Source: Opitutaceae bacterium
Lineage (GTDB): Bacteria; Verrucomicrobiota; Verrucomicrobiia; Opitutales; Opitutaceae
NCBI GenBank assembly: GCA_024711005.1
Contig: JANJTQ010000296.1
Coordinates: forward strand, 1-52,740
DNA: 52,740 nt
Direction: 5' to 3'
In this document: one piece after another, positions 4,997 to 21,548 of the stretch
How the letters are laid out: every line of letters starts with the position of its first letter
Numbering within the stretch: position 1 is the first letter of the stretch
Translations under genes and position numbers: made by a program
The notes under the pieces: generated by a model
The model's database searches: none
Seen by the model: only the letters and a program-made list of their open reading frames with translations
Told to the model about the DNA's origin: nothing

Positions 4997-5833
4997 TTAG
5001 GCGTCGCTGCGGCTGCGAACCTTGCGACGCGTCGCGGCGACGAGGAGCGAGCCGGCGCCGGCGAGGATGGCGTAGGTGGACGGCTCGGGGATGGTCGAGA
5101 CGATCTGCACGGAGTTGAGGAAGCCGCGTGCTTCTCCCGTACCGCCGATGCTGGCGAGGTTGAGGACTTCGCCGGAGGTGATGGAGATGCTGAACTTGGC
5201 GTAGTTGTCGCCGGGGTTGCCCGCCGGCACCCACTCGCCCGTCGCATCCGTCGAGTCAAGGTAGCTGATCTGCTGGCTGGTGGCGGCGTAGTCGGTGTAG
5301 TTGAAGTCACCCGCGGAGGCCGTGCCCACGTAAAGATTTTGAACATGCGCGCTGCTCAGGCTGGTGTTGCGAGCGGTGATGTAGATGTCGTAGGTGCCCG
5401 CGGACAGACCGCTGATCTGGACGCCAACCGCACGCGCGCCGCTGGTTGCCAGGTAGATGCCATCCTTGCCCACGGAGGTGCCGGCATAGATGTCGGAGGT
5501 GGTCATGCCGCCCAGAGCATTGTTGAAGGTGATGCCGGTTTTCTCCAAGTCGATGAGCGTGCTTCCGGAGGTGCTGTTCCCGCCGACGTCGATGGAGATT
5601 CCGCTTGTGGCGGTGCCGTCGGACCAGACGAGACTGCTCGTGGGATTCGCGTCCGTGACCTGATTCCAAGCACTGTCGGCGGTGGAGCCGCTTGCGGTAT
5701 GATAAGGGCTGTTGGTCAAGGCATCGCCCTCGGCGAGCGTCGGACCGAAGTCGAGCTGGAGTACTTGCGCGGTGAGAGAACCGGTCAGGCAGAGGACCGA
5801 CAGGGCGGCGGAGATGAGGTGTTTTGATGTCAT
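4997..5833 (-). CDS. PEP-CTERM sorting domain protein
   Basis: The 278-residue product has a signal peptide (MTSKHLISAALSVLCLTGS onward, cleaved after Thr-Ala-Gln). A Ser/Thr/Gly-rich beta-strand body follows. The C-terminus has Ile-Pro-Glu-Pro-Ser-Thr, a hydrophobic helix and a basic end (Arg-Arg-Lys-Val-Arg): the complete PEP-CTERM tripartite signal. Such proteins are recognised by an exosortase in the cytoplasmic membrane and delivered to the surface, often alongside exopolysaccharide. No exosortase gene is in this window. The body matches no family I can name. The start at 5833 is chosen because the signal peptide begins there; the longer in-frame start would add 22 unrelated residues. 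Confidence 0.85.
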   Translation of the reverse strand: MTSKHLISAALSVLCLTGSLTAQVLQLDFGPTLAEGDALTNSPYHTASGSTADSAWNQVTDANPTSSLVWSDGTATSGISIDVGGNSTSGSTLIDLEKTGITFNNALGGMTTSDIYAGTSVGKDGIYLATSGARAVGVQISGLSAGTYDIYITARNTSLSSAHVQNLYVGTASAGDFNYTDYAATSQQISYLDSTDATGEWVPAGNPGDNYAKFSISITSGEVLNLASIGGTGEARGFLNSVQIVSTIPEPSTYAILAGAGSLLVAATRRKVRSRSDA

Positions 5834-6081
5834 GGGGGTGCAGCGGATGAAAGAGGTTCGGGATGGACGTAATTGTCCGCGCGCTCCGCAGGGGGGCAAA
5901 TTGCATGAATTGAAAAACCTCGATAAAAACTATGGAATTTTGACATCCGAGGAGATCGTTATGCACCCTCTCCACGCCGATCGAGGGAACGAGCCTGCTC
6001 GTGATTCCATCCTCGCGCCCGCGTTCAAACCCTCCGCCGCGTCATCCAAGCCGCGGCAAGCGTCGCGACGAATGGCGTTCG

Positions 6082-6123
6082 TCAGTCTTCAATCTCGGGC
6101 ATCGAGCAGGCGGGGCTCGAAAA
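6082..6123 (-). repeat. Coding copy 1 of a shared 13-residue C-terminal tail
   Basis: These 14 codons encode FSSPACSMPEIED plus stop. The other copy is 21051-21092. The two differ at six positions, the third base of the codons for Phe, Ala, Cys, Ile and Glu and the middle base of the stop (TGA versus TAG), and all the sense changes are synonymous. Similarity stops at the stop codon and just before the Phe codon. Confidence 0.85.
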
Positions 6124-6549
6124 CACACGTGTGGTCTGCGGGCGAGGCGGCAGCTCGGCCGCCGCGGCGGTGACGAGATCGCTCAGGACGGAACGATGGC
6201 ACTGCGCCTCGTTTTCGCAAAAGCAGCCCAAGTTGACGCGCTGGCGGAGCGCCATGGCCGCGACCAACCGGATGGCTTGGCGAGCCGCCGGGCTGCGCAT
6301 TTCGGTGCGATAGCGCCGTGCGAAGGAGGGAAACTTTATTTCTCCGGACCGGTAGATGGCGACGAGTTCGCGGCTGGGTGAAAGCAGGGGCATCCAAACG
6401 TCGAAGTAACCGCCTGACGCATAATCCTCATGCCGTACGCCGCGCGGCGGATAGTGAGCCACGCCGATCGACAACCCCGGTTGATGACGGGCCGTTCCGT
6501 AACGATAGGTGTGCAGATTCAGGGGAGGAGTCTGGCCGGCGGATTTCAT
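6082..6549 (-). CDS. DUF488 family protein with a shared C-terminal tail
   Basis: The 155-residue cytoplasmic protein fits DUF488: it has Pro-Pro-Arg-Gly-Val near the start, Leu-Ser-Pro-Ser-Arg-Glu-Leu, Phe-Ala-Arg-Arg-Tyr-Arg-Thr-Glu, and near the end the hallmark Cys-Phe-Cys-Glu-x5-Cys-His-Arg-Ser-Val-Leu. The function of DUF488 is not established. After the domain comes an extension ending FSSPACSMPEIED, identical to the last 13 residues of the MarR-type regulator that ends at 21051. The ATG at 6549 is preferred over an upstream in-frame start because family similarity begins soon after it. The gene is divergent from the PLP enzyme at 6754. Confidence 0.8.
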   Translation of the reverse strand: MKSAGQTPPLNLHTYRYGTARHQPGLSIGVAHYPPRGVRHEDYASGGYFDVWMPLLSPSRELVAIYRSGEIKFPSFARRYRTEMRSPAARQAIRLVAAMALRQRVNLGCFCENEAQCHRSVLSDLVTAAAAELPPRPQTTRVFSSPACSMPEIED

Positions 6550-6636
6550 GATGATGGAACAGCGTGATCCGATATTAATTGTTGGCAAGGGACCGCCCCC
6601 GGCGAGACTGGGCGGGCTCGGCCGGGACTATTTCAT

Positions 6637-6753: not shown

Positions 6754-7941
6754 ATGAGCGCCGCGCTTCCCGGAATCGCCACCCGCTGCGCGCATGCGGG
6801 CGCCCGTCGACGCGAGGTGGACGGTGCCAACGCGCCCTTTCAACCGGCGATCGCGCAGAGCACGATCTTCGATCTTGGGTCGGCGGCGGATGCGGAGGCG
6901 ATTTTTTCAGGGGCGCGTCCCGGTTATGCCTACTCGCGTTTCGGCAACCCGACCGTTGATGTGCTGGCCGAAACCATCGCCGGGCTGGAGGGCGGGGCGG
7001 GGGCGTTGATCACGTCATCGGGCAACGCCGCGGTGTTGTGCGCCGTGACCGCGGCGCTGGAAGGGCGCACCGGGCCGCTGATCGCGCATCAAGACATCTA
7101 CGGCGGCAGCTTTGAGTTGATACAAATATTATCCGATGTCTGCCGCGTGCCGGTGGAGACCGTGGATTCGACCGACCGCGAGGCATGGAGGCGGGCGGTT
7201 TCCAAGGCGGGCGCGGTGCTGCTGGAGACGCCATCGAATCCGTTGATGCGGTTGATCGATCTCGAGGAGACGGTGGCGGCCGCGCGGATCACGGGTGCTC
7301 CGGTGATCGTGGACAACACGGTGGCGACGCCTTTCAACCAGCGTCCGTTCGCCGCGGGTGTCGACTGGATCGTACATTCGACTACCAAGTATTTGAACGG
7401 GCACTCCGACATGATCGGAGGCTGTGTCGTTAAGCGGGAACCCCTGACCGGGAAAAACCGGCGCGTTCACAAGTCACTTGGCGGAACGGTCAACGCACTC
7501 GACGCCTGGCTGGTCCTGCGCGGACTGCGCACGTTTGCCCTCCGAATGGAGGCGCACAATCGCAATGGCCAGGCGGTCGCGGAGTGGCTGGCCCGCCACC
7601 CGGCGGTCGCGCGTGTGTATTACGCGGGCGATCCGACGCATCCCCAGGCGGAGTTGTTTCGCCGGCAAATGCGGCATGGCGGCGCATTGCTTTCGTTTGA
7701 GCTGAAGGGTGGGGCGGACGCCGCCATCCGTTTCATCGACCGCCTGCGACTGGTCGTGCACGCGGTGAGCCTGGGCGGGATGGAAAGCCTTGCGACGCGC
7801 CCGGCGATGTCGAGTCACCGGGGAATGCCTCCCGAAGCACGTCGGGAGGCCGGCATATCCGAAAGCTTGATACGCCTGTCGGTGGGTGTGGAGACGCTTG
7901 AGGATATCCTGGCCGATCTCGACCACGCCCTGGCAAACTAG
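6754..7941 (+). CDS. PLP-dependent trans-sulfuration enzyme (Cys/Met metabolism family)
   Basis: The 395-residue protein matches the cystathionine gamma-synthase / methionine gamma-lyase family over its whole length. Visible are Tyr-Ser-Arg-x-Gly-Asn-Pro-Thr (about 60-67), Asp-Ile-Tyr-Gly-Gly with the ring-stacking Tyr115, Glu-Thr-Pro-Ser-Asn-Pro, Val-Asp-Asn with Asp187, and the Schiff-base Lys212 in His-Ser-Thr-Thr-Lys-Tyr-Leu-Asn-Gly-His. The C-terminal Ser-Leu-Gly-Gly-x-Glu-Ser and Ile-Arg-Leu-Ser-Val-Gly-x-Glu are also present. It acts on a homoserine ester, cystathionine or methionine in the cytoplasm; sequence alone does not decide which. GAGGAG lies eight bases before the ATG. Its leader may be structured (6637-6730). 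Confidence 0.9.
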   Translation: MSAALPGIATRCAHAGARRREVDGANAPFQPAIAQSTIFDLGSAADAEAIFSGARPGYAYSRFGNPTVDVLAETIAGLEGGAGALITSSGNAAVLCAVTAALEGRTGPLIAHQDIYGGSFELIQILSDVCRVPVETVDSTDREAWRRAVSKAGAVLLETPSNPLMRLIDLEETVAAARITGAPVIVDNTVATPFNQRPFAAGVDWIVHSTTKYLNGHSDMIGGCVVKREPLTGKNRRVHKSLGGTVNALDAWLVLRGLRTFALRMEAHNRNGQAVAEWLARHPAVARVYYAGDPTHPQAELFRRQMRHGGALLSFELKGGADAAIRFIDRLRLVVHAVSLGGMESLATRPAMSSHRGMPPEARREAGISESLIRLSVGVETLEDILADLDHALAN

Positions 7942-8137: not shown

Positions 8138-10390
8138 CTATTCTCTGGTGCCTGCCTGAAGGGTGCGTGAATCGGAGGGTGTTACGACCGGCTTGGACTC
8201 CGGATCTGCGAGGGGTGGGGCGGGCTCAGTCAGCAGGTGGACGGTGCGAAGAAGCGATTGGATGTTGTAGGGTTTCAGGAGAACTTGCGTCACGTTCAGC
8301 CGGGCGAGCGCCTTGTGGTCCAAGGATTCCTCCAGCCCCGAGATGATGGCGGCGCGAAACTTCACCGAGATTTTTCTCAAGGCGTGCAACGTGGTCAGGC
8401 CATCCATCAGCGGCAGTTTCATGTCGATGAGGATGAGGTCGACGTCGGCATGGTTTTGCGCGAACCACGCGATCGCGGCCACGCCATCTTCGGCGGTCTG
8501 AACCCGGTAGCCGTGTTGTTTCAAGGTTGTGCTGGCCGTGAGCCGGATCGCTTCCTCGTCGTCGATGATGAGGACCAGTTCGTTGTTTCCTTGGCGCACC
8601 GCGGTATCGTCGGCGCCCCTTGCCACGGCGGCGCCGGATGATTGAGCCGGGAGGAAGACGTTGAACACCGTTCCTTGACCGAGTTTGGTCGCCACTTCGA
8701 TGAAGCCTCCGTGGGCTTTGATGATACCGAGGGTGGTGGAGAGGCCGAGACCGGTTCCCTTGCCCGCGGGTTTGGTGGTGAAGAAAGGTTCGTACATCCG
8801 GTCGAGCACCGCTTGCGGGATGCCTGTGCCGGTGTCGCTCACGGAGAGGCGCAGGTAGGCGCCGGGTTTGACGTCCTGGCGGGCGCTCGCCTGCAACGCG
8901 TCGATCATGGCGTTCGACGCATCGATCGAGATAACGCCGCCTCCGGGCATGGCGTCACGGGCGTTCACACACAGATTCAGGAGGACCTGATCGACTTGCG
9001 TATCGTCGGCGATGATCGGCCAGAGATCCGCGGCGATCGTGGGATGAATGGTGATGTTCGAGGGGAAGGTCTGTCCGAGCACTTTCTGCAGTTCCTCGAT
9101 CATCGGTCCGACCTCCAGAAGCGAGTGTTCCGCCTCGCCGGTGCCGCGGGCAAAGGTGAGTAGTTGCTTGATCAGGCGCGCTCCGCGCCGGGCGCTTTGA
9201 TGGATGGTTTCCAACATGCGGAGCGCATTGGGATCGGACTGGGTGAGGGTGAGCAGTTCCGAGGCCATGAGGATGGGCGCGAGCACGTTGTTGAGATCGT
9301 GGGCGATGCCGCCGGCGAGCGATCCGATACTGTCCATCCGTTGATTGCGAAGGATGTGATCCTCCATCTGTTTTTGGGCGGTGATGTCGCGCATGGCCAC
9401 GACGGCGCCGTTGATCGTGCCGGAAGCATCACGAATGGGCCGGGCGGTGGTGCTGAGCATGACGCCGTCGGGATGCGGGGCGGTGCGCACAAATATCTCG
9501 ACGTTGTCGCACGAGTGTCCGTCGAGAGCGCGATACATCGGAAGCTCGTCGATCGGGAACGGCGTGATGCGGTCCGGCATGAAGGCGGCGGCGGTCGGCA
9601 TGCCTCCGGGCACCAAGGGGCCGATCAGGTCTTCGGCGGCGGGGTTCATCAGAACGATTTCGTTTCGCGAACTGGCGACGACCAAGCCGTCGCCCATGCT
9701 ATGAATGACCGATTGCAGGATGGTCGCCTGCTTGTGCACGGCTTGCTCGGCCAGCGCACTCTTGACCATCTCGGCTTCCAATTCGGCGGTGCGATCTTGA
9801 ACGCGTTGTTCGAGGCTTTCGGTCAACGCGCGCAATTCGTCCTGCGCTTCGACCAAGGCCAGGTTGCGCTGCACGGCGGTTTCGTAACTGCTGAGGAGCA
9901 GATTGAGGATCTGCAGGCGGTCGGAGTTGATGACGAACCGCTGGCCGGCGAACGTGATCTGGATGTCGATATCGGCCCGGTGCGTATCGGTCTGCAACTG
10001 CCGGTTGCTGATCATATGGTTCACCCGGGCGAGCAGGTATTCCTCCTGATAGGGCTTCACGATGAAGTTGTCCGCCCCGGCTTCGAGTCCGCGAATGACG
10101 TCGACCGGGTCGGCGAGCATCGTCACCAGGACAACCGCGGTTTTGTTGAGCGTGGGATGGTGCTTGATGCGACGGCACAGCTCATAACCGCCGATCTCGG
10201 GCATGTTGACGTCGGTGAGAAGCACGGCGGGCTTGAACGATTCCGCCATCTCCAGGGCCTCCCGTCCATTGGAGACGGCCCGGACATCACAGGAGAGCTT
10301 TTCGAGTACCATGCAGAGCTGCTCACGTTGCGTGGCGCTGTCTTCCGCGACGAGGATGCGAATGGGATTGTTGGGGATGATTGCGGTCAT
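8138..10390 (-). CDS. Hybrid histidine kinase with N- and C-terminal receiver domains
   Basis: The 750-residue protein has no membrane segment. In order: receiver 1 (about residues 8-125; phosphoacceptor Asp in Leu-Leu-Thr-Asp-Val-Asn-Met-Pro, Lys-Pro at its end), a coiled-coil linker (about 170-245), a PAS domain (about 246-360), HisKA with the phospho-His in Ile-Ala-His-Asp-Leu-Asn-Asn-Val, HATPase with Asp-Thr-Gly-x-Gly-Ile and Gly-Thr-Gly-Leu-Gly-Leu-Ser, and receiver 2 (about 615-730; Asp in Leu-Ile-Asp-Met). It overlaps the end of cheB as ATGA, so it is translationally coupled. In the Wsp system this place is held by the diguanylate cyclase WspR; here receiver 1 is the likely target of the CheA at 11490, making a kinase-to-kinase relay. 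That link is inferred. An upstream in-frame start would overlap cheB further without adding conserved sequence. Confidence 0.9.
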   Translation of the reverse strand: MTAIIPNNPIRILVAEDSATQREQLCMVLEKLSCDVRAVSNGREALEMAESFKPAVLLTDVNMPEIGGYELCRRIKHHPTLNKTAVVLVTMLADPVDVIRGLEAGADNFIVKPYQEEYLLARVNHMISNRQLQTDTHRADIDIQITFAGQRFVINSDRLQILNLLLSSYETAVQRNLALVEAQDELRALTESLEQRVQDRTAELEAEMVKSALAEQAVHKQATILQSVIHSMGDGLVVASSRNEIVLMNPAAEDLIGPLVPGGMPTAAAFMPDRITPFPIDELPMYRALDGHSCDNVEIFVRTAPHPDGVMLSTTARPIRDASGTINGAVVAMRDITAQKQMEDHILRNQRMDSIGSLAGGIAHDLNNVLAPILMASELLTLTQSDPNALRMLETIHQSARRGARLIKQLLTFARGTGEAEHSLLEVGPMIEELQKVLGQTFPSNITIHPTIAADLWPIIADDTQVDQVLLNLCVNARDAMPGGGVISIDASNAMIDALQASARQDVKPGAYLRLSVSDTGTGIPQAVLDRMYEPFFTTKPAGKGTGLGLSTTLGIIKAHGGFIEVATKLGQGTVFNVFLPAQSSGAAVARGADDTAVRQGNNELVLIIDDEEAIRLTASTTLKQHGYRVQTAEDGVAAIAWFAQNHADVDLILIDMKLPLMDGLTTLHALRKISVKFRAAIISGLEESLDHKALARLNVTQVLLKPYNIQSLLRTVHLLTEPAPPLADPESKPVVTPSDSRTLQAGTRE

Positions 10391-11493
10391 GGCGAGGTGA
10401 CAGACGTGGAGTTGCCCGGGGTGGAAAGGCGGATGAGGAGGGTGGCGATTTCTTCGGGTGGGAGAATCCACGTGGCGGCGGCTTGCTTCACGGCTTCGCC
10501 GGGCATGCCGAAGACGACGGAGCTATCGCGGTCCTGAGCGACGGTGGCGGCGCCGAGATCGCGTAGCTGTTTCAGCTCCGCCGCACCATCGATGCCCATG
10601 CCGGTCATGAGCACCGCGACCGCACGCGAGCCGTAGGTCGCCGCGATCGATCGAAAGAGCACGCCAACGGCCGGGCGTAGTCCGCGTTCCGGCGGTGAAT
10701 CGATTAATTGGATACGGCCGGACTGCGTGACTCCGAGGTGGAAGCCGTCGGGTGCAAGGTAGGCATGGCCGGGCATCATGGTTTGGTGATGCACGGCCAG
10801 CTTGAGCGGGAATTGCACGCTGCGTGACAACCATTCGACAAGCCCGGGCATGAAGCCCTCCGCCATGTGTTGGACAATGACAATGGGGAAGGGTAGACCG
10901 GCCGGCAGCCGCGACAGCAGTGCTTGCAATGCGATCGGTCCGCCGGTCGAGGCGCCGATGGCGACGATGTCCACCGGTCGGGTGGTCGGGAGCGCCGCGG
11001 CGGACGATGGCGATGCCGGCGTGGTTCCGGGAATCGTCCGCGGCCCTGTCTGCCAGCGGCGGACTAATTTGACCTCGGCCATGGCCTTGACCGCCTGCAC
11101 GAGGGCGCGCGCTTCGCCGACGAACGCGGGGTGGCCCACGCCGCGCGGACGCTGCCGTACGGCGACCGCGCCCGCCGCCATCGCTTGAAAACCAATGTCC
11201 ACTTCGGTCGTGTCCAGGCTGCCGCTGATAATCACTATCGGGATCGGATGCCGATGCATGATCTGCTGGGTTGCTTCGAAACCGTTCAGCTTGGGCATGT
11301 GGACATCCATCGTGATGACATCCGGGCGATGTTCCGCTGCAAGCCGCACGCCTTCCTCGCCGTTTTTGGCCATGCCGATAACGGTCAACTCCGGGTCGGC
11401 CTCCAAAATTTCGCGGAGCAACTCACGCACCACCGCGGAGTCATCCACGATTAATACGCGCAAGGGGCGAGGCGTTGGGGCGGAGCCGGTCAT
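10387..11493 (-). CDS. cheB: Chemotaxis response regulator protein-glutamate methylesterase CheB (WspF-like)
   Basis: The 368-residue protein has an N-terminal receiver (about 11-135; Asp-Asp-Ser at 17-19, phosphoacceptor Asp63) and a C-terminal methylesterase domain (about 174-355) with Gly-Ala-Ser-Thr-Gly-Gly (Ser182), Gln-His-Met (His209) and Met-Thr-Gly-Met-Gly-Ile-Asp-Gly. It removes methyl groups from receptor glutamates, or deamidates glutamines, to reset the signal. Both ends overlap neighbours as ATGA (cheA upstream, hybrid kinase downstream). The receiver's conserved Lys-Pro appears as Arg115-Pro116; other residues look intact. Confidence 0.93.
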   Translation of the reverse strand: MTGSAPTPRPLRVLIVDDSAVVRELLREILEADPELTVIGMAKNGEEGVRLAAEHRPDVITMDVHMPKLNGFEATQQIMHRHPIPIVIISGSLDTTEVDIGFQAMAAGAVAVRQRPRGVGHPAFVGEARALVQAVKAMAEVKLVRRWQTGPRTIPGTTPASPSSAAALPTTRPVDIVAIGASTGGPIALQALLSRLPAGLPFPIVIVQHMAEGFMPGLVEWLSRSVQFPLKLAVHHQTMMPGHAYLAPDGFHLGVTQSGRIQLIDSPPERGLRPAVGVLFRSIAATYGSRAVAVLMTGMGIDGAAELKQLRDLGAATVAQDRDSSVVFGMPGEAVKQAAATWILPPEEIATLLIRLSTPGNSTSVTSP

Positions 11494-13865
11494 AGCAGGC
11501 GATGGACGGTGTCGAGCAGGTTGCTCTCTTCAAAGCTGCGCTTGGCAATGTAGGCGTTGGCACCGGCTTCCAGTCCGCGCTCCCGATCCTCGCTTGAATC
11601 AAGAGAGGTGACGAGGATGACGGGTACCTTGGAAAGATTGGTATCGCCGCGGATTTTTTCGGTGAGGCCGAGCCCGTGGAGTCGGGGCATGTCCACATCG
11701 GTGACGACGAGATCGAAGGGTGCGCTGCGCAATTTTGCGAAGGCATCGATGCCGTCCACGGCGGTCTCAACCGTGAAGCCGGCCGATTCCAGGATGCTCC
11801 GCAGAAGCGTGCGCGAGGTGATGGAATCATCCACGACGAGGATGGTTTTTTTCCGGTCGGCTTCCATGTCCGTCGCGATGACCGCGGGCTGGGCAGCCGT
11901 GCCGGACTCGCCCTGGCGCACGGCGAGGCGGATCAATTCCTGTGCGTCGAGGATCAGCGCCGGTCGACCTGTGCCGAGCACGGTTGCACCGGCGATATGG
12001 GGGAGGCGCGCACCCTGCGGTCCGAGTTTCTTCGCGACGATCTCCTGCTCGCCGCAGATTTCGTCGACGAGCAGGGCCAGTCGGAGGCCACCGGATGCGA
12101 CGATCAACACGGGCCGGTGGCCGGCGTTTTCAGGCGTCGTCGGCGAGACGGGCAGCGCCAGCGCGGCGGCGAGCCGGACCAGGGAAAATTGTTCGCCGCC
12201 GGAGACGATGACCTCGCGATTCTCCAATGTGGAAATCTGCTGTGGCGTCACCCGCTTCACCCGCATCACACTTTCCACGGGAAACACCAGCGAGTAATCG
12301 CCCACCCGGACCACCACGCCGCGGAAGGTCGCGAGCGAGAGCGGCAACGAGAGCCGCAGAGTGGTGCCCTGTCCGGGAGTGCTGTCGATGCGGACAACAC
12401 CGCCCAGCTTTTCGGTCTTTTCGCGAACGATCGCCAGGCCGAGACCGCGGCCCGACAAGTCGGTGATCAACGGGCTGGTGGTGATGCCCGAACCGAACAC
12501 CCACTGCAGGACCTCGTCTTCGCCGAGCGCGGCGGTTTTAGCCGCGTCGAGGGCTCCCGATTTGATGATCGCCTGGCGAAGTTTCGCGGTGTTGATGCCG
12601 CGTCCATCGTCGTTGACGGCGATGTCCACCCGGCCATTGCGCGCGGGGGCGATGCGCACGGCGAGGGTGGCGACGCGAGGTTTGCCGGCGGCCTGGCGTT
12701 CGGCGGGAGATTCGATGCCGTGATCGAGGCTGTTGCGCAGCATGTGGAGAAACGGAGCCTTGAGTTCGGAAAGGACGCGGCGGTCGAGTTCGAGGGCTTC
12801 GCCTTCGATCACGAGGTTGACCTCTTTGCCCTGTTCACGGGCGAGGTCGCGCAAAGGCTGGCGGATGCCATCGAGCAGCCAGGAAAAGGGCAGCATCAGG
12901 AGGTCGCGCGTGCCGGCGAGCAGGGCATCGACCTTCGCACCGAGCGACTGCCGGTCATGCGCGGCGGTGCGGGCCGCCCGATTAAGCCGTGCATCCAAGT
13001 CGGGCAGGAACTCTTTGTGCCAATCAAGAAAGGCGCGAAGCCGCTCGGCGGCTTGCGCGGTGGTCGTCGGTGGCGCACCGGTTGGTGGATGGAGGACGAG
13101 TGAGTTGCAGTCGGCCAACGCCGGCCCCCAGCGTCGGGTCCATTCCGCAAGCGTGGCCGACAAGTGCCGGAGTTCGGCGGCGCGCTCGATCGCGGCAAGT
13201 TTGTCCGCGAGCAGTTCCTCGGCCTGCACGCGCACGGCATTGAGCATGGCGGTGGTGACACGCACGGTTTCCGCGGGAGCGGACTCACTGCGGGGCGCCG
13301 GAGCCGAAGGAGCGGTTTCGTCGGGCGAACTTGGCGCGCTTACCGGAGTGACAGGCGCCTTGGATGGTGGCTGCCCGGGGAAGGAAAATGCGGATGATTG
13401 CAGAGACTCCGACGCTTCAGCGGGTTTTGTTGTCGCGGTCTTCGTCGAAGGGACGGGTGGTCTTGCCCAAGAGGCTTTTTTCAAGGTGTCGATCGTGGCG
13501 ACGATGGACGGCGGGGGCGTCTTGGTTTCCTCGGCTTGGAGCAGTTGTTGGGTGAGATGTGTGGCGCCGAGCAGGGCATCAAGGAGCTCGTGTGTCGGTG
13601 ATACTTCGCGTTGCTTGAGACGCGCCAGAATCGTCTCCATCGCCTGACAAACGGATTCGATCGATGTGACGTTCACCGCGCGGGCGGCGCCCTTGAGGCT
13701 GTGCGCTTCGCGGAAAGCCGTCTCGATGAGGCTGGCGGCAACCTCGGCGGCCGGAGCGGCCTCAAGGTCGAGAAGATGGCGCGACAACGCGTCGATGTGT
13801 TCCTGGGCTTCGCCCTGGAACACCCGCCACAGGCGGTCTCGCAATGCCTTTTCGCGCTCGTTCAT
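11490..13865 (-). CDS. cheA: Chemotaxis histidine kinase CheA with a C-terminal receiver (WspE-like)
   Basis: The 791-residue cytoplasmic protein starts with an HPt domain (phospho-His55 in Ala-His-Ser-Leu-Lys-Gly-Ala-Ala). A Pro/Ser/Thr-rich linker (about 125-200) and a dimerisation region follow. The HATPase domain has His-Met-Leu-Arg-Asn-Ser-Leu-Asp-His-Gly-Ile-Glu, Asp-Asp-Gly-Arg-Gly-Ile and Gly-Arg-Gly-Leu-Gly-Leu. Then come a CheW-like coupling domain (about 520-655) and a receiver (about 668-791; Val-Thr-Asp-Val-Asp-Met-Pro). CheA fused to a receiver is typical of the Wsp, Frz and Pil pathways rather than E. coli-type chemotaxis. It starts two bases after the mcp stop and overlaps cheB by ATGA. 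Confidence 0.94.
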   Translation of the reverse strand: MNEREKALRDRLWRVFQGEAQEHIDALSRHLLDLEAAPAAEVAASLIETAFREAHSLKGAARAVNVTSIESVCQAMETILARLKQREVSPTHELLDALLGATHLTQQLLQAEETKTPPPSIVATIDTLKKASWARPPVPSTKTATTKPAEASESLQSSAFSFPGQPPSKAPVTPVSAPSSPDETAPSAPAPRSESAPAETVRVTTAMLNAVRVQAEELLADKLAAIERAAELRHLSATLAEWTRRWGPALADCNSLVLHPPTGAPPTTTAQAAERLRAFLDWHKEFLPDLDARLNRAARTAAHDRQSLGAKVDALLAGTRDLLMLPFSWLLDGIRQPLRDLAREQGKEVNLVIEGEALELDRRVLSELKAPFLHMLRNSLDHGIESPAERQAAGKPRVATLAVRIAPARNGRVDIAVNDDGRGINTAKLRQAIIKSGALDAAKTAALGEDEVLQWVFGSGITTSPLITDLSGRGLGLAIVREKTEKLGGVVRIDSTPGQGTTLRLSLPLSLATFRGVVVRVGDYSLVFPVESVMRVKRVTPQQISTLENREVIVSGGEQFSLVRLAAALALPVSPTTPENAGHRPVLIVASGGLRLALLVDEICGEQEIVAKKLGPQGARLPHIAGATVLGTGRPALILDAQELIRLAVRQGESGTAAQPAVIATDMEADRKKTILVVDDSITSRTLLRSILESAGFTVETAVDGIDAFAKLRSAPFDLVVTDVDMPRLHGLGLTEKIRGDTNLSKVPVILVTSLDSSEDRERGLEAGANAYIAKRSFEESNLLDTVHRLL

Positions 13866-13867
13866 GG

Positions 13868-15604
13868 TCAGACCGAGTTCAATTTATACTGGCTGACGAG
13901 CGACTGGAGTTTTTGTCCCACGGCGTGGAGGTTGCGCGCGGCCGTCTCGGTTTGTTTGGTGCCGCTGACGTTTTGGTTGCTGGCCTCCCGGATGCTTTCC
14001 ATCGCCGAGGCCACCTGATCCATGCCGGCCGATTGCTGCTGGCTGGAGGCGGCGATCTGCATCGCGGCTTGTGCGCCGGAATCGATGACATCGGCCAGTG
14101 AGCGAATGGCCTCGTTGGCGGCGTTGGATTGTTTCATGCCGGCCTCGACGGTCTTGTCTCCCTGCTCGGCGGCCATCACGGAACGGCTGATGGCCTTCTG
14201 TATATCGTTGAGGATCGTGCGAACCTGAATGGTCGCCTGCTTCGACTGATCGGAGAGCGACTTCACCTCCTGGGCCACGACGGCGAAGCCTCGTCCTTGA
14301 TCGCCGGCCCGGGCGGCTTCGATGGCGGCGTTGACCGCGAGCAGGTTTGATTGTTCGGCGAGGTCGGCGACGGTCGCAACGATCTCGCCGATGGTCTGGC
14401 TTTGCTCGCTCAGCGTGACGACGGTTTCCGCGATGGAGCCCATCTGTTGCTGAATCTTGTTCATGCTTTCCGATGTGGCATCGACGGCGGCGCGGCCGCT
14501 TTGCGCGATGTGCGCGGCGGTCTGCGCGTTTTCCGAGACGAGCCTGGCTTTCTGACTGGCGAGTTGGGCGGTTTGCTTGACCTCCTCGATGGTGGCCGAG
14601 GTTTGGGTAAGCGCGGCGGCGGTTTCGGATGCGCCGGCGGCGACCTGGGTGGTAGCGGCGAGGATCTGGCTGGCGGAGGAGGCAAGAACGGTGGCCGCTT
14701 CCTGTAGTTCACGGGTGGAGTGGCGCAGTCCGGTGCGCATGGTCGCGAAGGCGGTGCCAAGTGTGTCCTTCGAGGACTGTGGCTTCACGTCGCTGACCAG
14801 ATCGCCGCTGGCGATGCGTTGCGCCGCGCCGGCCATCGCCGAGAGCGTGTCGAGCATCTGCGTGAAACTGCGGAACAGTGCGCCGACTTCGTCCGAACGC
14901 GAGGTTTCGGGGAGCTTCACCGAGAGATCGCCGACGGCGATATTCCGGGCGGCGGCGGTGACCTCGGCGAGCGGACGGGCGATCGTGCGCGTCAGCCAGA
15001 CTCCGATGCCAATGATGAGCGCACCCGAAATCATCACCCCGAGAATTACGGTCAATTTCGAGCTTCGCGCATTCTCGATCGTGGCGACGTCGCGCGAGGC
15101 GAGCACCGCCCGTTCCTCCATTTTCATCGTGTCGACGATCCGGCGGATTGCCTTCATGGTTTCCTGTCCCCGGCCTTCCCCGATCATCTTGGTGGCCGCC
15201 TCGATTCCATCCCGGCGACGCGTGTTCAGGATCTCTTCAAACTCGTCGAATTTTTGCGAGACGAGAGGCGTCAGGGAGGCGAGGCGTTGCAGTTGCGCGG
15301 GATTCCCGGCCAGCAAGGTCTCGAGTCGGGCGAGATTGGCTTCGGAGGACTGCCGGGCGCCTTGATAGGGGGCAAGGAACGAGTCGTTTCCGACCAGAAT
15401 GAACCCGCGCTGGGCCGTCTGGCCGTTGAGGGTATCGGTCAATGTGCTTTCGAGCGCGTTGAGGACCTGATGGGAGTGACTGGTGAGGCGGGCGGTTTCG
15501 TCGAATTCCTTGATGCTGAAAAACGACAGGACGGAGAGGACGACTCGCACGATCAGGATCGTGGCGAAGCCGAGGGTGATTTTTAATCCAATGGACCACT
15601 TCAT
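13868..15604 (-). CDS. Methyl-accepting chemotaxis protein with CHASE3-like sensor
   Basis: The 578-residue receptor has an N-terminal membrane helix (about 7-30) and a periplasmic helical sensor (about 31-185) that resembles CHASE3, including Asn-Gly-Gln-Thr-Ala-Gln-Arg-Gly-Phe. A second membrane helix (about 187-207), HAMP (two copies appear likely, about 208-300) and a long coiled-coil signalling domain follow. The tip has [17 protein letters not shown] and Gly-Arg-Gly-Phe-Ala-Val-Val-Ala. It should control the CheA encoded next. The ligand is unknown; CHASE3-type sensors often respond to surface or envelope state. Confidence 0.92.
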
Positions 15605-15644
15605 GATATTTGAAATTTAAGGCGTGGGGGAGGAGCGGGGGTGT

Positions 15645-16283
15645 TTATAACGAGGGGTGGTCGGCCGGGCCGGCGTTGAAGCGGGAGTCGCGGAGAAGCC
15701 GGCGCGCGTCGAGCACGACGAGGGAATCGGCCGTGATGCCGCGGGAGAATTGGGCGCGGAGTCCGGTGAACGTCGGGGGGAGGGCCTGTAACGAGCCTTC
15801 CTCCATGTGTCGCAGACTTCCGGATACAGAGTCGGCGAGCAGGCCGAACTCCGTGGCGCCGTCCTCAAGCACGATGATTTTGTTAAGGTTGGTCAGACCC
15901 TGGGACGAGAGCCCGAAGAACGGCTTCAGATTGAAAATCGTGAGCATTCGTCCGTGGAGATGCGTGATGCCGAGGACAAACGACGGGGCTCCGGGCAACG
16001 GAAGGTAATCATGGAGGTAGGCGACTTCGCGCACATGGGCGGTCTCGATGCCGTAGGTCTCGTGGAGCAGAGAGAACTCAAGCAGCTCGAGGCGGGTGCC
16101 CGTGGACGTCATCGATGCCGGGGCGACGGCCGCGACCCGGGCTCGGGCCCGCAGGATATCCCGCCGACGTTCGGCGGTGGGGGAGGTATTCTGGTCCAGC
16201 AACGCATGCGCCGCCACCATCCGCCGCCGCAGGGCGGACCAGTCGATCGGTGAGCGTGGTTGCGTGGCGACGGGGGTGGGCAT
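15645..16283 (-). CDS. cheW: CheW-like coupling protein with an N-terminal extension (WspD-like)
   Basis: This 212-residue protein has an N-terminal helical extension (about 1-60) and a CheW domain (about 65-200) with Ile-Glu-Thr-Ala-His-Val-Arg-Glu-Val, Leu-Pro-Leu-Pro-Gly-Ala-Pro-x-Phe-Val-Leu-Gly-Ile and Leu-Thr-Ile-Phe-Asn-Leu. CheW domains bridge receptors and CheA. The extension matches the layout of WspD, which sits between wspC and wspE. The ATG at 16283 is one base past the cheR stop; an alternative GTG at 16298 would overlap it. Confidence 0.88.
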   Translation of the reverse strand: MPTPVATQPRSPIDWSALRRRMVAAHALLDQNTSPTAERRRDILRARARVAAVAPASMTSTGTRLELLEFSLLHETYGIETAHVREVAYLHDYLPLPGAPSFVLGITHLHGRMLTIFNLKPFFGLSSQGLTNLNKIIVLEDGATEFGLLADSVSGSLRHMEEGSLQALPPTFTGLRAQFSRGITADSLVVLDARRLLRDSRFNAGPADHPSL

Positions 16284-16284
16284 T

Positions 16285-17691
16285 TTAAGCGACGGCACGA
16301 GTCAAGGTGTGGATCATCTCCGTCAGGTGTCCGACGGTCAGCCCGTCCATGTCGGGCAACTCGGCGTCGGGGGGCGATGCCTGAAGCAGCGTGAGCACGT
16401 GGGCGAAGGAGCGGCGGGCCTCGGCTTTTTTTCCCTGCCGCAATGCGAGATTTCCCAGAGCGAAATGCGCCGGGATGGAGGTGGGTTCCAGGTAAAGCAC
16501 ACGGCGGAGCGCCGCTTCGGTCTCCTCTTGCCTGTCGAGTTCCTGCAGGACGCGGGCGCGCAGGAAGTGGAGCGAGGGATTCATCTTATCAAGGAGGATG
16601 GATTCATCGCAGTCTTGCAGTGCATCGGCCAGTTGGCCGCGGTTTGCGGCGAGGAGGGCGCGCGAGGCAAGAGCGGTCGTATCGGCCGACAGGGTTTGCG
16701 GGGCTGGGTCGGCGTCGATCGAAGGCCGGGAGGTGCTCCGGACGGAAGACACGTTTGCATGAGGCGGCTTGGATCGCGGGACGGGCAGCCTTGGAACCGG
16801 GTGCGGAGAGGGGGAGGCTGCCGGCGTCGCCGTGTCGTCGCTGTCGTTGGTTTTTCGATACAGAAAGACCCCGTCGAAATGAGTGGAGCGAAGACCCGGC
16901 AATCGGCGCGCGGTATGCTCGGTCGGACTGACCGCGAGCCAGCCGGACGGGGTGAGCGAGCGATGAAGGCGGGTCATCGCGGCGTGCGCCTGCCGCTCGG
17001 AGAAATACATCAGCACGTTGCGGCAAAGGATCACGTCCATGTTGCCGGTATCGTGGACCGGGGACGGATAGACGTCTTTGGCGAGGTTGAGTTGGACAAA
17101 GGTGACGCGCGCCCGGGTGCGGGGATTCAGCACGTGGCAACCGGCTTCGGTGGTCCGAAAAAAGCGGTCCTTGATGCCGGGTGGGATCTGGCGAAAGGAC
17201 CAGTCTTTGTAGACGCCCAGCGCGGCCCGATCCAGGAACTCCTGGTTGAGGTCGGTCGCGAGGATGTGGATGTTCCAGTCGTCGATATCGGGGAGCAGCC
17301 GCTCCAGCATCATCGCCAGCGTGTAGGGCTCTTCGCCGGTGCAACAGCCCGCGCTCCAAAGCCGCAGATGGCGGCTTCCTTTTTTGCGGCGGCGGACGAG
17401 TTGGGGAAGTAGGTGGTTTTCCAATACGGCCAGGGTCGCCGGCTCCCGGAAGAAATAGGTTTCCCCGACCGTCAGTCGTTGGGCGAGCACCTCCAGGGTC
17501 CTGTCGGGCAGGCCTCCTTGTTCGAGCCGGTTCACCCAGCCGGCGATGTCCGCCTCTCCGGCCTCCGCGGCCGCTTCGGCCAGGAGCTTCGCCAACTCCT
17601 CCTGGCGGGAGGGCGGAAAGTGAAGCCCGAGACGCTGCTCGATCAGGGCGAGTGCCTGCGAGAATCGGGCTGCCGCGGAGGTGGCGTTCAT
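16285..17691 (-). CDS. cheR: CheR-type protein-glutamate methyltransferase with C-terminal TPR region (WspC-like)
   Basis: The 468-residue protein has the CheR N-terminal helical domain (about 10-75), an SAM-binding methyltransferase domain (about 85-275) with Thr-Tyr-Phe-Phe-Arg-Glu, Trp-Ser-Ala-Gly-Cys-Cys-Thr-Gly-Glu-Glu-Pro-Tyr, Leu-Ala-Thr-Asp-Leu-Asn and Ile-Leu-Cys-Arg-Asn-Val-Leu-Met-Tyr-Phe, a Pro/Ser-rich linker, and a TPR-like region (about 335-450). CheR methylates receptor glutamates; TPR-tailed versions belong to Wsp-like pathways. It overlaps the upstream cheW as ATGA. The predicted product of the pathway's adaptation branch is balanced by the cheB at 10387. Confidence 0.92.
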   Translation of the reverse strand: MNATSAAARFSQALALIEQRLGLHFPPSRQEELAKLLAEAAAEAGEADIAGWVNRLEQGGLPDRTLEVLAQRLTVGETYFFREPATLAVLENHLLPQLVRRRKKGSRHLRLWSAGCCTGEEPYTLAMMLERLLPDIDDWNIHILATDLNQEFLDRAALGVYKDWSFRQIPPGIKDRFFRTTEAGCHVLNPRTRARVTFVQLNLAKDVYPSPVHDTGNMDVILCRNVLMYFSERQAHAAMTRLHRSLTPSGWLAVSPTEHTARRLPGLRSTHFDGVFLYRKTNDSDDTATPAASPSPHPVPRLPVPRSKPPHANVSSVRSTSRPSIDADPAPQTLSADTTALASRALLAANRGQLADALQDCDESILLDKMNPSLHFLRARVLQELDRQEETEAALRRVLYLEPTSIPAHFALGNLALRQGKKAEARRSFAHVLTLLQASPPDAELPDMDGLTVGHLTEMIHTLTRAVA

Positions 17692-18167
17692 GACGCGGGC
17701 ACCTCCGTTAGGGCGAGTACCAGCGCGTGCTCTTCATCAAGCGACAAACAGGCGTCGAGATCGTGGATGAGGATCAGTCCGTCTTCGCGTTTCACCGCCC
17801 CCGCCAAATAGCCGGTGCGGGGGAGGATGTTCGGGGCGGGGATCCACGCGGATTCGCCGACGGTTTCGATCCCGCAGGCTTCGTCCGCGAGCAGGGCGAC
17901 ACGGCGACGGAGGGTGCGGCCGAGGATGAGATGATCGCTCAGGCGGGGCTCGCGCTCGGGGAGTCCAAAACGTTTACGAAGATTGATGACCGGGATCACC
18001 GCGCCCTGAAAATTGATCACCCCCGCGACGATTTCAGGAGCTTGAGGCAGCGGGGCATAGTCGACGAGCCGGATGATCCGGTCCACCGCTTGGAGCGATA
18101 CTCCGTAACGCTGGGTTTCGATCATGAATACAACGATCGTAAGCAGAAGGGGCGTGGGCTGATCCAT
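17688..18167 (-). CDS. cheW: CheW-like coupling protein, first gene of the chemosensory operon (WspB-like)
   Basis: The 159-residue single CheW domain shows Tyr-Gly-Val-Ser-Leu-Gln-Ala-Val-Asp-Arg-Ile-Ile-Arg, Pro-Glu-Ile-Val-Ala-Gly-Val-Ile-Asn-Phe-Gln-Gly and Val-Ile-Pro-Val-Ile-Asn-Leu-Arg. It links receptor and kinase. It is the first of seven minus-strand genes that overlap or nearly touch down to 8138. The ATG at 18167 is chosen because the domain begins there; an upstream in-frame start would add 19 mostly basic residues. Two coupling proteins in one operon is the Wsp arrangement. Confidence 0.88.
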   Translation of the reverse strand: MDQPTPLLLTIVVFMIETQRYGVSLQAVDRIIRLVDYAPLPQAPEIVAGVINFQGAVIPVINLRKRFGLPEREPRLSDHLILGRTLRRRVALLADEACGIETVGESAWIPAPNILPRTGYLAGAVKREDGLILIHDLDACLSLDEEHALVLALTEVPAS

Positions 18168-18372: not shown

Positions 18373-20181
18373 CTACGCCTGAGGTCCGGTGTCGGACGGC
18401 GGTCTGCGGGTGAACCATCCGGGCTCGGTCTGGTTATTTTCCTGCCAACGCAGGCGACGGGCCGAGAGGACCGCAGCCCGTCCAAGATACCCGAGCAGTT
18501 CCCGTGGATTGGCGCGGCTTACCACCGGGAGGCGGCCGACGTCGTGGGCATGCATCCGCTCGATCGCATCGTGCAACGCTTCGTCGGGATACGCGCAGAG
18601 CAAATCCCGTGTCATCACCGTGCCGAGTTCTTCGTCGGCCTCGCCGCGTTCGATCGCCGCCAGGAGATCACGACGCGTGATGATGCCGACGAGGGCACCT
18701 TGTTCATCGGTGACGAGGAGCGCGGTGTGATGGCAGACCCCGGGATCGTTTGCGCCAATGCGATCGGCCAGCGCGGCCACTTTCATGCGGACTGAAACGG
18801 TGCCCGGTTTTTTTTCCATTACACGGGCCACGGTTACGTGGGCAAAAACGTCCGCGTCAAATTCCATGGGCACGCGCACGCCGCGTTGCTCCACGGGAGT
18901 CGTCATGAGCGAGCGGGCCGACAACACATGCGCCATGGCCAGCGAGGCGGTCGCGGCCGTCGCGACGGGCCAGAGCACGCCCGCCTGCTGGGTGATTTCC
19001 ACTCCCAGGACGATGGAGGCGAAGAACGCCCGTGAGCCGCCGGCGAAGAACGCCACCATGCCCGCCAGTGCGGCCAATCCCGGGGAAATTTCCGAAATCG
19101 ACAGCGCATTAAAAATCGCGGCGACCAAGGCGCCGAGCCCTCCGCCGACAACCAGCATGGGCGCGAGGGTGCCACCCGACGTGCCGCTGCCCAGCGAGAC
19201 GATCCAGACGACCAACTTGAGTCCGCATACCAGGGCGACCACCGAGAGCGGCAGATTGCCCGTGAGCAAGGCTCCGATCACGTCGTACCCCGCACCGAAT
19301 ACCCGGGGTTCCCAACAGCCGATCAACCCGACAAACAGGCCGCCGATCACAGGGCACCACATCCAGTGCACCGGCAGGCGGGCGAACCCTTTTTCCGCCT
19401 GATGCACCGCGTGGTTGGCGACGACCGCGAGGACGCCGGCGCAGATTCCGATACACGCAAAGATCAGCAAGGACGACCCCGGCGCGCCCAGGTTTTCGGG
19501 CGGGGCGAGGGGAAACAGAGCCGCGTGTTCGCCCCAGATAAATCGAAGCGCCTGCGCACTGGCCGCCGCGATTGCCACCGGGATAAGCGATCGTGCGCGG
19601 AGCTCGAACAACAACAATTCGACGGCCAGCAACGTGGCCGCGACAGGACTTCCAAAGATCGCGGTCATCGCCGCGGCGGCACCCGCCGAAAGCAGGATTT
19701 TCCGTTCGCTGGCCGTCATTGCGAGCGCCTGACCCAGTAACGAACCCACCGCGCCTCCGGTGGCGATCACCGGTCCCTCCGCTCCGTAAGGACCGCCGGT
19801 CCCGATGGAGATCGCCGATGATAACGGTTTCAACAGGGCCACGCGCGGGGTGATCCGGCTGCGATTGGCCAGCACCTGTTGCATCACCTCGGGAATGCCA
19901 TGCCCGATGATCGCGCGCGAACCGTAGCGCGCCATCAAGGCGATCAAGCCGCCGCCGAGCGCGGGAATAACGATCACCCATGCCCCGCGCGTATGATCGT
20001 CCGCCGGTGCCCATTCGGTGGAAAACTTCCCAAAAAACGCCAGTTGGGTGATCCCCCCGATCAAAGCATGCAGTACATGGGCGGCCAATGTGCTGCACCC
20101 GGCGACCAGCACGGCCAGCAAGCTGATGAAAATCAACCGTGCGGCGGGCGACGGAGTGGATCGGGACGGCGTTTCATTCAT
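18373..20181 (-). CDS. ClC family chloride channel/antiporter with C-terminal CBS pair
   Basis: The 602-residue membrane protein has the ClC core (about 15-430): Gly-His-Gly-Ile-Pro at 93-97, Gly-Ala-Glu-Gly-Pro with the gating Glu135, and Gly-Thr-Ser-Gly-Gly-Thr-Leu-Ala-Pro. A Glu in Phe-Glu-Leu-Arg aligns by eye with the internal proton glutamate of E. coli ClcA, suggesting Cl-/H+ exchange rather than a passive channel. Two CBS domains (about 455-585) follow and probably bind nucleotide to regulate transport. It lies 26 bases downstream of the HPP gene on the same strand, so the two are likely one transcript. Confidence 0.92.
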   Translation of the reverse strand: MNETPSRSTPSPAARLIFISLLAVLVAGCSTLAAHVLHALIGGITQLAFFGKFSTEWAPADDHTRGAWVIVIPALGGGLIALMARYGSRAIIGHGIPEVMQQVLANRSRITPRVALLKPLSSAISIGTGGPYGAEGPVIATGGAVGSLLGQALAMTASERKILLSAGAAAAMTAIFGSPVAATLLAVELLLFELRARSLIPVAIAAASAQALRFIWGEHAALFPLAPPENLGAPGSSLLIFACIGICAGVLAVVANHAVHQAEKGFARLPVHWMWCPVIGGLFVGLIGCWEPRVFGAGYDVIGALLTGNLPLSVVALVCGLKLVVWIVSLGSGTSGGTLAPMLVVGGGLGALVAAIFNALSISEISPGLAALAGMVAFFAGGSRAFFASIVLGVEITQQAGVLWPVATAATASLAMAHVLSARSLMTTPVEQRGVRVPMEFDADVFAHVTVARVMEKKPGTVSVRMKVAALADRIGANDPGVCHHTALLVTDEQGALVGIITRRDLLAAIERGEADEELGTVMTRDLLCAYPDEALHDAIERMHAHDVGRLPVVSRANPRELLGYLGRAAVLSARRLRWQENNQTEPGWFTRRPPSDTGPQA

Positions 20182-20207: not shown

Positions 20208-20702
20208 TCAGCGTTCCGTCGTCTGGGGAATCGCGTGCCAGTAGCGTGGGTATTTATGACGCCGGGTCGTGCGGTGATAAACCGTCGCCATGACGACGAG
20301 CATGATCGTTCCGCCCAACGTCGAGGTGACCAGGAATTCCCAGCTCGGTTTGGCGAGGAATACGATGATTGCATTCGAACCGGCGGGTGGGTGCACCGTG
20401 CGGGTCATCATCATGACGCCCACGCCCAGTCCGGTGGCGACGCCGACCGCCCACCATTGAGGTCCGAGGAATGAGAGGCATCCGAGCGCGATGACCGAGG
20501 CGGATAGATGACCGAACACCACAGAGCGAGGCTGCGAGAGGGGCGCATCAGGCAGCGCAAACAGGAGAAGCGCGGAGGCGCCGAACGAACCCAACAGCAT
20601 CAACCCTTGCGTCGACATGGCGACGAGGGCCAGGGCGGAAACCGAAACAACGGCGCCCAGACTGGCGAGGAGGATCTGTGACTTTCGAAACGCGGGTGAC
20701 AT
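20208..20702 (-). CDS. HPP family integral membrane protein
   Basis: The 164-residue protein is almost entirely hydrophobic, with about four or five membrane helices, and has the family signature Arg-Thr-Val-His-Pro-Pro-Ala-Gly-Ser-Asn (near residue 105). Some HPP proteins of plants and cyanobacteria transport nitrite; the role of most bacterial members is unknown. Pairing with a ClC transporter suggests anion transport or homeostasis, which is inference. The ATG at 20702 sits directly before the first polar/basic residues; a GTG 15 bases upstream is less likely. A dyad lies about 40 bases upstream (20744-20766). Confidence 0.85.
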   Translation of the reverse strand: MSPAFRKSQILLASLGAVVSVSALALVAMSTQGLMLLGSFGASALLLFALPDAPLSQPRSVVFGHLSASVIALGCLSFLGPQWWAVGVATGLGVGVMMMTRTVHPPAGSNAIIVFLAKPSWEFLVTSTLGGTIMLVVMATVYHRTTRRHKYPRYWHAIPQTTER

Positions 20703-20743
20703 GGAAAAGCGGCCCACAAAGAGGACTCATGGGCCGTCTGCCA

Positions 20744-21050: not shown

Positions 21051-21092
21051 CTAGTCCTCGATCTCGGGCATCGAACACGCGGGGCTCGAGAA
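21051..21092 (-). repeat. Coding copy 2 of the shared 13-residue C-terminal tail
   Basis: These codons encode FSSPACSMPEIED and stop, at the end of the MarR-type regulator, matching the peptide encoded at 6082-6123 exactly while using different synonymous codons at five of the thirteen residues. Confidence 0.85.
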
Positions 21093-21548
21093 GGACTGGC
21101 GAGGGGATTGGTCGGGGAGTTCCGATGATGCTTTGTGAAGCAAGGTGATCAGCTTCGGGCCGATCGTTTTTAGTTCTTCGCGGTGGGCGCGGTACAATTT
21201 TTCGAGAATGCCGAGGCCCTTGGGAGTGAGTGAAACCTCCACGCGCCGCCGGTCCTCGGTCGATGGAGACCGTTTGACCAGTTGAAGAGCTTCCATGCGA
21301 TTCACCAAGCCGACGGCGCTGTGGTGGGCGATGCGCAGCTGTTCGGCGAGTTCGCCGACCGTCACCCAGGAGCGTCCGGGAAATCCTTCGATGGCAAGGA
21401 GCGCCTGGTATTGCTGGGCGGATACGCCGTGTCCGATGGCGGCCGCCTCGCTGAAACCGAGAAACTTGCGCAGCGTGTAGCGAAAGTCGGCCAGCAGTTC
21501 GAAGTCCTCTTTGCTGAGGCTTCCGATGGATTTCTCGGTGGAGGACAT
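21051..21548 (-). CDS. MarR family transcriptional regulator
   Basis: The 165-residue protein has the MarR winged-helix core: Val-Thr-Val-Gly-Glu-Leu-Ala-Glu-Gln-Leu, the recognition helix His-His-Ser-Ala-Val-Gly-Leu-Val-Asn-Arg-Met-Glu, and the wing Pro-Ser-Thr-Glu-Asp-Arg-Arg-Arg-Val-Glu-Val-Ser-Leu-Thr-Pro-Lys-Gly. It should bind DNA as a dimer in the cytoplasm. The ATG at 21548 is preferred; an earlier in-frame start would add 62 unconserved residues and run into the sigma-54 regulator gene. It is followed by the HPP-ClC pair, a plausible target. It ends with the unusual tail FSSPACSMPEIED, shared with the DUF488 protein, beyond the normal end of the fold. Confidence 0.88.
   Translation of the reverse strand: MSSTEKSIGSLSKEDFELLADFRYTLRKFLGFSEAAAIGHGVSAQQYQALLAIEGFPGRSWVTVGELAEQLRIAHHSAVGLVNRMEALQLVKRSPSTEDRRRVEVSLTPKGLGILEKLYRAHREELKTIGPKLITLLHKASSELPDQSPRQSFSSPACSMPEIED

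Follow-up and report, generated by a model that had tools for sequence, protein, structure and literature searches.

The window analysed here, i.e. the whole stretch of 52,740 nucleotides from an Opitutaceae contig, contains two genes of unrelated families, one for a DUF488-N3a protein and one for a MarR-family regulator, and the translations of both end in FSSPACSMPEIED (Table 1). The start of the DUF488-N3a gene was placed at the first ATG of its ORF (6549). The divergent MetB-like enzyme has cystathionine gamma-synthase and methionine gamma-lyase as its best PDB matches, and is under the cut-off of every NCBIfam equivalog among the matches listed. The MarR-HPP-CLC gene order is repeated in a relative (L134), and HPP and CLC genes also flank the tagged DUF488-MarR fusion gene of another relative (L270). 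The HPP family includes a nitrite transporter candidate, described in PMC4137279. In the window, MetB is situated beside DUF488 and the HPP-CLC pair beside MarR, each place having its own tag. Between the two tagged genes (8138-18224, minus strand) there is a chemotaxis-type set comprising a hybrid kinase, CheB, a CheA-like protein, an MCP, two CheW and CheR. The product of a further ORF (4997-5899, minus strand) ends in IPEPSTYAILAGAGSLLVAATRRKVRSRSDA, presumably a PEP-CTERM-like end, i.e. another portable C-terminal sorting signal in the window.

Table 1. Tags, tagged hosts and adjacent genes in the window, and the tagged fusion gene of a relative
Feature	Location	Strand	Pfam match	Remark
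Tag FSSPACSMPEIED with stop TGA	6082..6123	-		C-terminus of DUF488-N3a protein
DUF488-N3a protein, tagged host	ORF 6082-6588; 6082..6549 from first ATG	-	PF22751, E=2.7e-35	
MetB-like Cys/Met metabolism PLP enzyme	6754..7941	+	PF01053, E=7e-119	divergent from DUF488
CLC chloride-channel-type protein with CBS domains	18373..20181	-	PF00654, E=2.5e-70	third in MarR-HPP-CLC set
TM_HPP membrane protein	20208..20717	-	PF04982, E=4.6e-43	directly downstream of tagged MarR
Second tag FSSPACSMPEIED with stop TAG	21051..21092	-		C-terminus of MarR
MarR-family regulator, tagged host	21051-21734 (host entry 21051..21548)	-	PF12802, E=2.3e-15	
DUF488-MarR fusion, 304 aa	L270 (G047) 5101-6015	minus		N-terminal tag; between HPP and CLC genes

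A 40-base degenerate pattern of the tail, with up to three mismatches allowed, has two matches in the window, the mean for 100 shuffles being 0.00, and with the tail patterns used the two window copies are the only matches in the whole 5.01-Mb genome. The shuffle test and the whole-genome pattern scan rule out chance or a local repeat as the origin of the tail. The coding parts of the copies differ in the codons for Phe (TTT/TTC), Ala (GCC/GCG), Cys (TGC/TGT), Ile (ATT/ATC) and Glu (GAA/GAG), that is, by five synonymous and no non-synonymous substitutions, which has a probability of about 3e-4 if substitutions are random over all sites. This bears out the claim of the first-pass annotation that two unrelated proteins share a C-terminal tail with synonymous codon changes only; its count of six differing bases should be corrected to seven, because TGA and TAG, the two stops, account for two differing bases and not for a single one.

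Across 252 family genomes, the tail pattern was matched 18 times, in 17 genomes, and the reversed control pattern five times. Sixteen of the 18 matches, in 15 genomes, are C-terminal tags on MarR, DUF488 or a tiny ORF, and the remaining two (G021, G206) were left out, as they are not terminal tags. All but one of the truly tagged genomes (14 of 15) have a single match, the exception being the window genome with two. Three more tags came, without use of the motif, from MarR orthologs gathered irrespective of their tail: VASSPCSMPELED on MarR in G229, YFSSPCSMPEIEDD on DUF488 in G256, and YASPPCWLHEFED near the N-terminus of the DUF488-MarR fusion in G047, where both host families of the window are joined in one protein with one tag. 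The last case exemplifies that strict patterns miss true tags with other codons. There are thus 18 tagged genomes in the family, including that of the window, with MarR, DUF488, their fusion or a tiny ORF as the host. The first-pass annotation had considered that the tail might be absent from relatives or might be an ordinary intergenic repeat. Besides the window genome, 17 genomes of the family proved to be tagged, and an intergenic repeat read in frame was rejected, the retained tags being in frame near protein ends.

In relatives' stretches with both MarR and DUF488, the tag is present on just one of the two. It is on DUF488, with MarR in the same stretch, in L135, L137, L140, L141, L142 and L275 (the distance between the two genes is 7 kb in L142 and 3 kb in L275), and on MarR, with DUF488 in the same stretch, in L136, L144, L145 and L146 (in L146 the DUF488 best matches another subtype). 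In L143 the tag is carried by a tiny ORF located two bases ahead of a globin gene, the MarR there being untagged. Close MarR copies (n = 26 in 25 genomes, E up to 1e-49; 25 read) form four groups: those with a C-terminal tag (n = 10), with a tag on a neighbour (n = 7), the fusion (n = 1), and those with no tag on them or nearby within the 10-16 kb read (n = 7). On the MarR tree, in which G047 was counted as untagged, the MarR-tag and other-tag states need three changes, with weak support (bootstrap 2-3). The tagged MarR gene in L132 is directly followed at its 3' side by short tandem repeats of the GGCTAGTG type, and its tag has SN added before the stop. When the joined Opitutaceae tail was compared with plasmids, a single match was obtained, under ugpC, and the tail of G062 had no match in PDB.

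To look beyond the family, 84,980 species were scanned with an exact pattern of codons for F-x-[S/T/C/R...]-P-[AP]-C-x-M-[HPQ]-E, yielding 59 stretches, in 54 of which the motif is near an ORF end; L039, L040, L055, L084 and the doubtful L027 were left out. Four of the 54 have the Opitutaceae-type C-terminal form. The others are mostly from Alphaproteobacteria, with a few titled only Proteobacteria or Pseudomonadota, one from Gammaproteobacteria and one from Planctomycetota. The alphaproteobacterial form is longer, F[AS]SP[AP]C-x-MHE-[VIL]-DPAY-x-G, and tends to be situated at the N-terminus of 5-formyltetrahydrofolate cyclo-ligase (5-FCL); in Marinimicrococcus (L075) it is at the C-terminus of 5-FCL, and in L113 it is internal, between 5-FCL and DUF6306 in a fusion. 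PAS, DUF1971, DCC1-like and alpha/beta-hydrolase proteins are further alphaproteobacterial hosts, and a Methylovirgula DUF6306 protein has the N-terminal leader TSPACSMHDADDAYMGY. The DUF6306 domain PF19825 was found in none of the non-DUF6306 tag hosts scanned alongside the 5-FCL-tag-DUF6306 fusion. In Magnetovibrio blakemorei (L152, 5311-5953) the tagged 5-FCL was matched in two pieces, with a frame break around residue 97. A 69-aa ORF of Pseudohongiella (L027/L155), with FPWPACPMHEIDP near its start and no panel genes nearby, is possibly a gammaproteobacterial tag.

A search of 288 genomes from the class of G287 produced 20 matches in 19 genomes (control, four matches); 11 of these are tags, and nine were dropped as not being tags. 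In the class of the window (316 genomes) five genomes matched, one of them new (G682): there, SSPACFLHEFQDP ends a GCN5-related acetyltransferase (PF14542, E=6e-27) encoded directly ahead of a MetB-like gene. In each of the 19 genomes searched whole there was exactly one strict match, these genomes having been picked because they are tagged. The unrelated folds with the tag are DUF488, MarR, 5-FCL, PAS, DUF1971, DCC1-like, alpha/beta-hydrolase, DUF6306 and the GCN5-related acetyltransferase, and small unassigned proteins also carry it. The earlier idea of a transferable C-terminal tag stands as far as a portable peptide is concerned; its restriction to the C-terminus does not, given the N-terminal and internal copies. 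The annotation also did not foresee the spread over two phyla, the MHE form that prevails at N-termini in Alphaproteobacteria, the mostly single match per genome in whole-genome pattern searches, or the tendency towards nitrite/NO-type neighbourhoods.

The most direct view of a change of host comes from two collinear loci with 86-88% identity, L165 and L164 (the latter on a 4.29-Mb contig). L165 has a tagged 5-FCL gene followed by a separate PAS gene. L164 lacks about 590 bp, corresponding to the 5-FCL body; the gap begins right behind the tag and ends shortly ahead of the PAS start, and the tag and PAS constitute one open frame. Over 16 codons the two tags differ by five bases, all synonymous, and by no residue. 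As tag-5-FCL is common elsewhere, the 5-FCL body was probably lost in L164 rather than gained in L165. Similarly, in L154 the tag is kept on an ORF that matches only about residues 1-77 of 5-FCL and in which Pfam finds no domain. The tag being kept without the enzyme argues that it is selected for itself, and both the tag and its mobility between hosts are well supported.

The consensus of the tag is approximately [FYL][AS]SP[AP]C-x-[MLI]-[HP]-E-[ILVF]-[DE]. Over the 16 tabulated Opitutaceae copies the pooled pN/pS is 0.118, but pooled conservation figures of this kind are biased, because the motif searches by which the copies were found fixed several residues. Among the same copies, synonymous sites are near saturation (pS 0.76) while the residues hold. 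The bias is smaller for the window pair and the L164/L165 pair, for the three tags that came from MarR orthologs, and for 5-FCL homologs picked by the protein body alone. Among the latter (30 read of 43 matches listed), the strict tag is present in 14 and the tag core in 20 of 30, and in some of these tag-blind homologs the Met position is occupied by Ala or Ile. A loose protein-level pattern of the tag had no matches in 40 trHb loci and 19 control loci. In the C-terminal Opitutaceae copies (n = 16) Pro is in place of His and 15 copies end in D, the other one adding SN, although both Pro and D were required by the search pattern; the Cys is followed by Ser or Ala, whereas in the other tabulated copies it is followed by Leu, Met, Phe, Ser or Tyr. 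Purifying selection on the peptide, proposed by the first-pass annotation, agrees with the five synonymous and zero non-synonymous differences in each of the two pairs, and the central Cys and acidic end that it had described are also supported.

AlphaFold models were obtained for two hosts. In a tagged 5-FCL (26 sequences, mean pLDDT 83), residues 1-24 and 26-29 are below pLDDT 50. In the window MarR (four sequences, mean pLDDT 68) the same holds for residues 144-156 and 158-165 of 165, this model being weak because the alignment is shallow. The tag is likely to be disordered on both modelled hosts.

We then considered the genes around the tags. Of 61 plasmid records with a tag-like leader, eight were read. 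In six of the eight, one or more genes for globin, Rrf2, nitronate monooxygenase, flavohemoglobin, FdxA, DUF488, DUF1971, nitrate reductase, MetB or HPP occur near the tagged gene; in the Methylobacterium and S. medicae records no such genes are near it. In two further unannotated records, a MetB-like ORF adjoins the tagged ORF. In 82 tagged loci, some of which are from near relatives, the genes within 9 kb are DUF488 (n = 25), Rrf2 (n = 24), globin (n = 24), MetB (n = 20), LysR (n = 16), HPP (n = 11), FdxA (n = 8), NnrS (n = 8), CMD (n = 6) and qNor (n = 5). Leaving LysR apart, a panel gene (the NO-type set, MetB, DUF488, CMD or DUF1971) is found within 9 kb in 60 of these loci, and no such gene in the other 22; the alpha/beta-hydrolase and DCC1-like loci have none. 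Pfam confirms the panel names Bac_globin, NnrS, NorB, Prismane (Hcp) and Rrf2 on sample members.

In a comparison within genomes, 13 of 19 tagged loci and none of 19 untagged 5-FCL loci had one or more panel genes (LysR uncounted), a contrast to be read as partly circular, because it was tagged plasmid loci that had supplied the panel. In the remaining six tagged loci, all alphaproteobacterial, there is no panel gene in the stretch read. The tagged host is 5-FCL in 16 of the 19 pairs, and PAS or DUF1971 in three. Twenty genomes had been searched for this comparison, G299 being left out for having no untagged copy and an extra 5-FCL-like copy of G289 not being used; some stretches end at contig ends, and the G287 control covers only 5.8 kb.

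For verrucomicrobial tags, a MetB-like gene is located within 3 kb in 12 of 21 cases, compared to one of 11 untagged MarR genes, four of which are distant homologs and three more of which have a MetB-like gene at 3.7 to 6.4 kb. The distance to the tag is as short as 37 bases in L283 and 110 bases in L274. No MetB-like gene was found within 3 kb of any of 40 trHb genes. Close trHb homologs (E up to about 1e-38) are present in 10 of 18 tagged and 42 of 234 other genomes of the family (Fisher p=0.0007). At the same time, by the patterns used, all 40 further trHb neighbourhoods lack the tag, seven of them being from tagged genomes with the tag elsewhere, and a very loose rescan gave two non-terminal look-alikes (L179 and L198). 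We thus rejected globin as an obligate partner: since trHb occurs in 42 of 234 genomes not known to be tagged and all 40 further neighbourhoods are untagged, globin needs no tag.

At the level of sequence, it is established that the tag has many unrelated hosts, occupies either terminus, is mostly single-copy in the genomes searched whole, has changed only synonymously in the two pairs compared, and in one lineage is found on a new host, with the body of the old one missing. These features suggest that the tag itself has its own job, apart from that of the carrier protein. We would give an even chance to the proposal that FSSPACSMPEIED is the Opitutaceae form of a selected portable terminal peptide of a nitrite/NO-stress module, docking in trans via its Cys. 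The tag would then belong to the gene module and not to any single protein, and the host would be a mere carrier expressed together with the module. The Ser-Pro-x-Cys-x-hydrophobic-(His/Pro)-Glu core would be bound by a partner that is produced under the same conditions, with the Cys as a reactive or metal-ligating centre, through nitrosation, persulfidation or a metal. More tentatively, the functional unit could be the trans-acting Cys peptide as such, with any co-expressed protein as a carrier in two phyla, outliving its carrier by fusion.

If, alternatively, the tag were a conditional degron, a protease or adaptor would read the Cys peptide, and turnover of the carrier would be switched through the Cys by NO or redox chemistry. 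The tag is indeed terminal, low in pLDDT and independent of the host, with the Cys kept in the tabulated copies, and its hosts include a regulator and enzymes in NO-type neighbourhoods. Nevertheless, we consider this unlikely: the tag is used at the N- and C-terminus alike and is internal in the 5-FCL-tag-DUF6306 fusion, genomes mostly have a single copy, and a substrate-specific degron would not be expected to stay on a new host once the old body is missing. Both the single copy and the persistence on another host fit docking, or an action in trans, better than a single-substrate degron.

Somewhat less probable still is a metal, heme or sulfur peptide, in which Cys, Met/Leu, His and Glu would bind iron, copper or dinitrosyl-iron, or the Cys would take sulfur from the MetB-like enzyme. 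Its appeal comes from the residue make-up, the closeness (3 kb or less) of a MetB-like gene to 12 of the 21 verrucomicrobial tags, and the globin, FdxA and Hcp genes near other tags. A Cys-His metal site, however, cannot be general, because His is replaced by Pro in the 16 C-terminal Opitutaceae copies (where Pro was required by the pattern), and Ala or Ile at the Met position of tag-blind homologs also speaks against this reading.

The tag could also be a host-specific switch, for instance a redox tail in the case of MarR and a regulatory leader in that of 5-FCL, the likeness having been reached or inherited separately. In line with this, 54 of 82 loci have a 5-FCL match close to the tag, and the tag position is common to 10 of 25 close MarR copies. 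It is made improbable by the occurrence of the core on eight families assigned by Pfam or annotation plus the acetyltransferase, by the L164/L165 host exchange, and by the low pLDDT, so that no packing on either host core is predicted. Finally, a DNA or RNA element (a translational coupling signal or a repeat) read in frame by accident might explain why the tag is often at a gene boundary, as before the globin start in L143, but is hardly credible given synonymous sites near saturation with the residues held, the use at both termini, and no more genome copies by the patterns used.

Should the more tentative reading above, of a trans-acting Cys peptide as the functional unit, be right, a passenger peptide on interchangeable carriers would add a new kind of functional element to those known in bacteria. 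The poorly understood DUF488, DUF1971 and DUF6306 and a second 5-FCL of Alphaproteobacteria have in common a portable signal, defined from sequence alone, which also links them to nitrite/NO-type genes. The conserved-Cys peptide offers one testable handle on a hidden partner, and a tag that is constant while its host changes is a natural case in which the function of a peptide is set apart from that of the protein.

In the open-licence literature, among the matches listed, a tag of this kind was not found described, and no mention of the tail strings or DUF6306 was found in that literature. In Pfam, the point of contact is DUF6306 (PF19825), since a DUF6306 protein carries a similar N-terminal leader; neither of the window hosts matches the domain itself, with E up to 1 allowed.

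Among known systems, the heme regulatory motif is a Cys-Pro dipeptide and was rejected, as Pro never follows the Cys in the tabulated copies. Degrons of the ssrA type have a small hydrophobic C-terminal end, and eukaryotic N-degrons an NO/oxygen-sensitive Cys. The tag is similar to both in being short, terminal and not tied to any one host fold. An ssrA-type degron was nevertheless rejected: the end of the tabulated Opitutaceae copies is acidic, not hydrophobic (with D required by the pattern), and the tag can be internal; as for Cys N-degrons, the tag Cys is not residue 2. In cytosolic iron-sulfur assembly, an LDW-type C-terminal targeting tripeptide is carried by unrelated clients of one pathway. 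The tag is likewise a portable motif, but its residues differ and it is also N-terminal, and to our knowledge none of its hosts is an iron-sulfur protein. Encapsulin cargo-loading and microcompartment encapsulation peptides are short and terminal, occurring on unrelated proteins after a flexible linker. The tag differs from them in sequence, in being mostly one per genome instead of marking several cargos, and in having no helix predicted over it in the two models, but it resembles them as a short terminal peptide attached to the N- or C-terminus of unrelated proteins.
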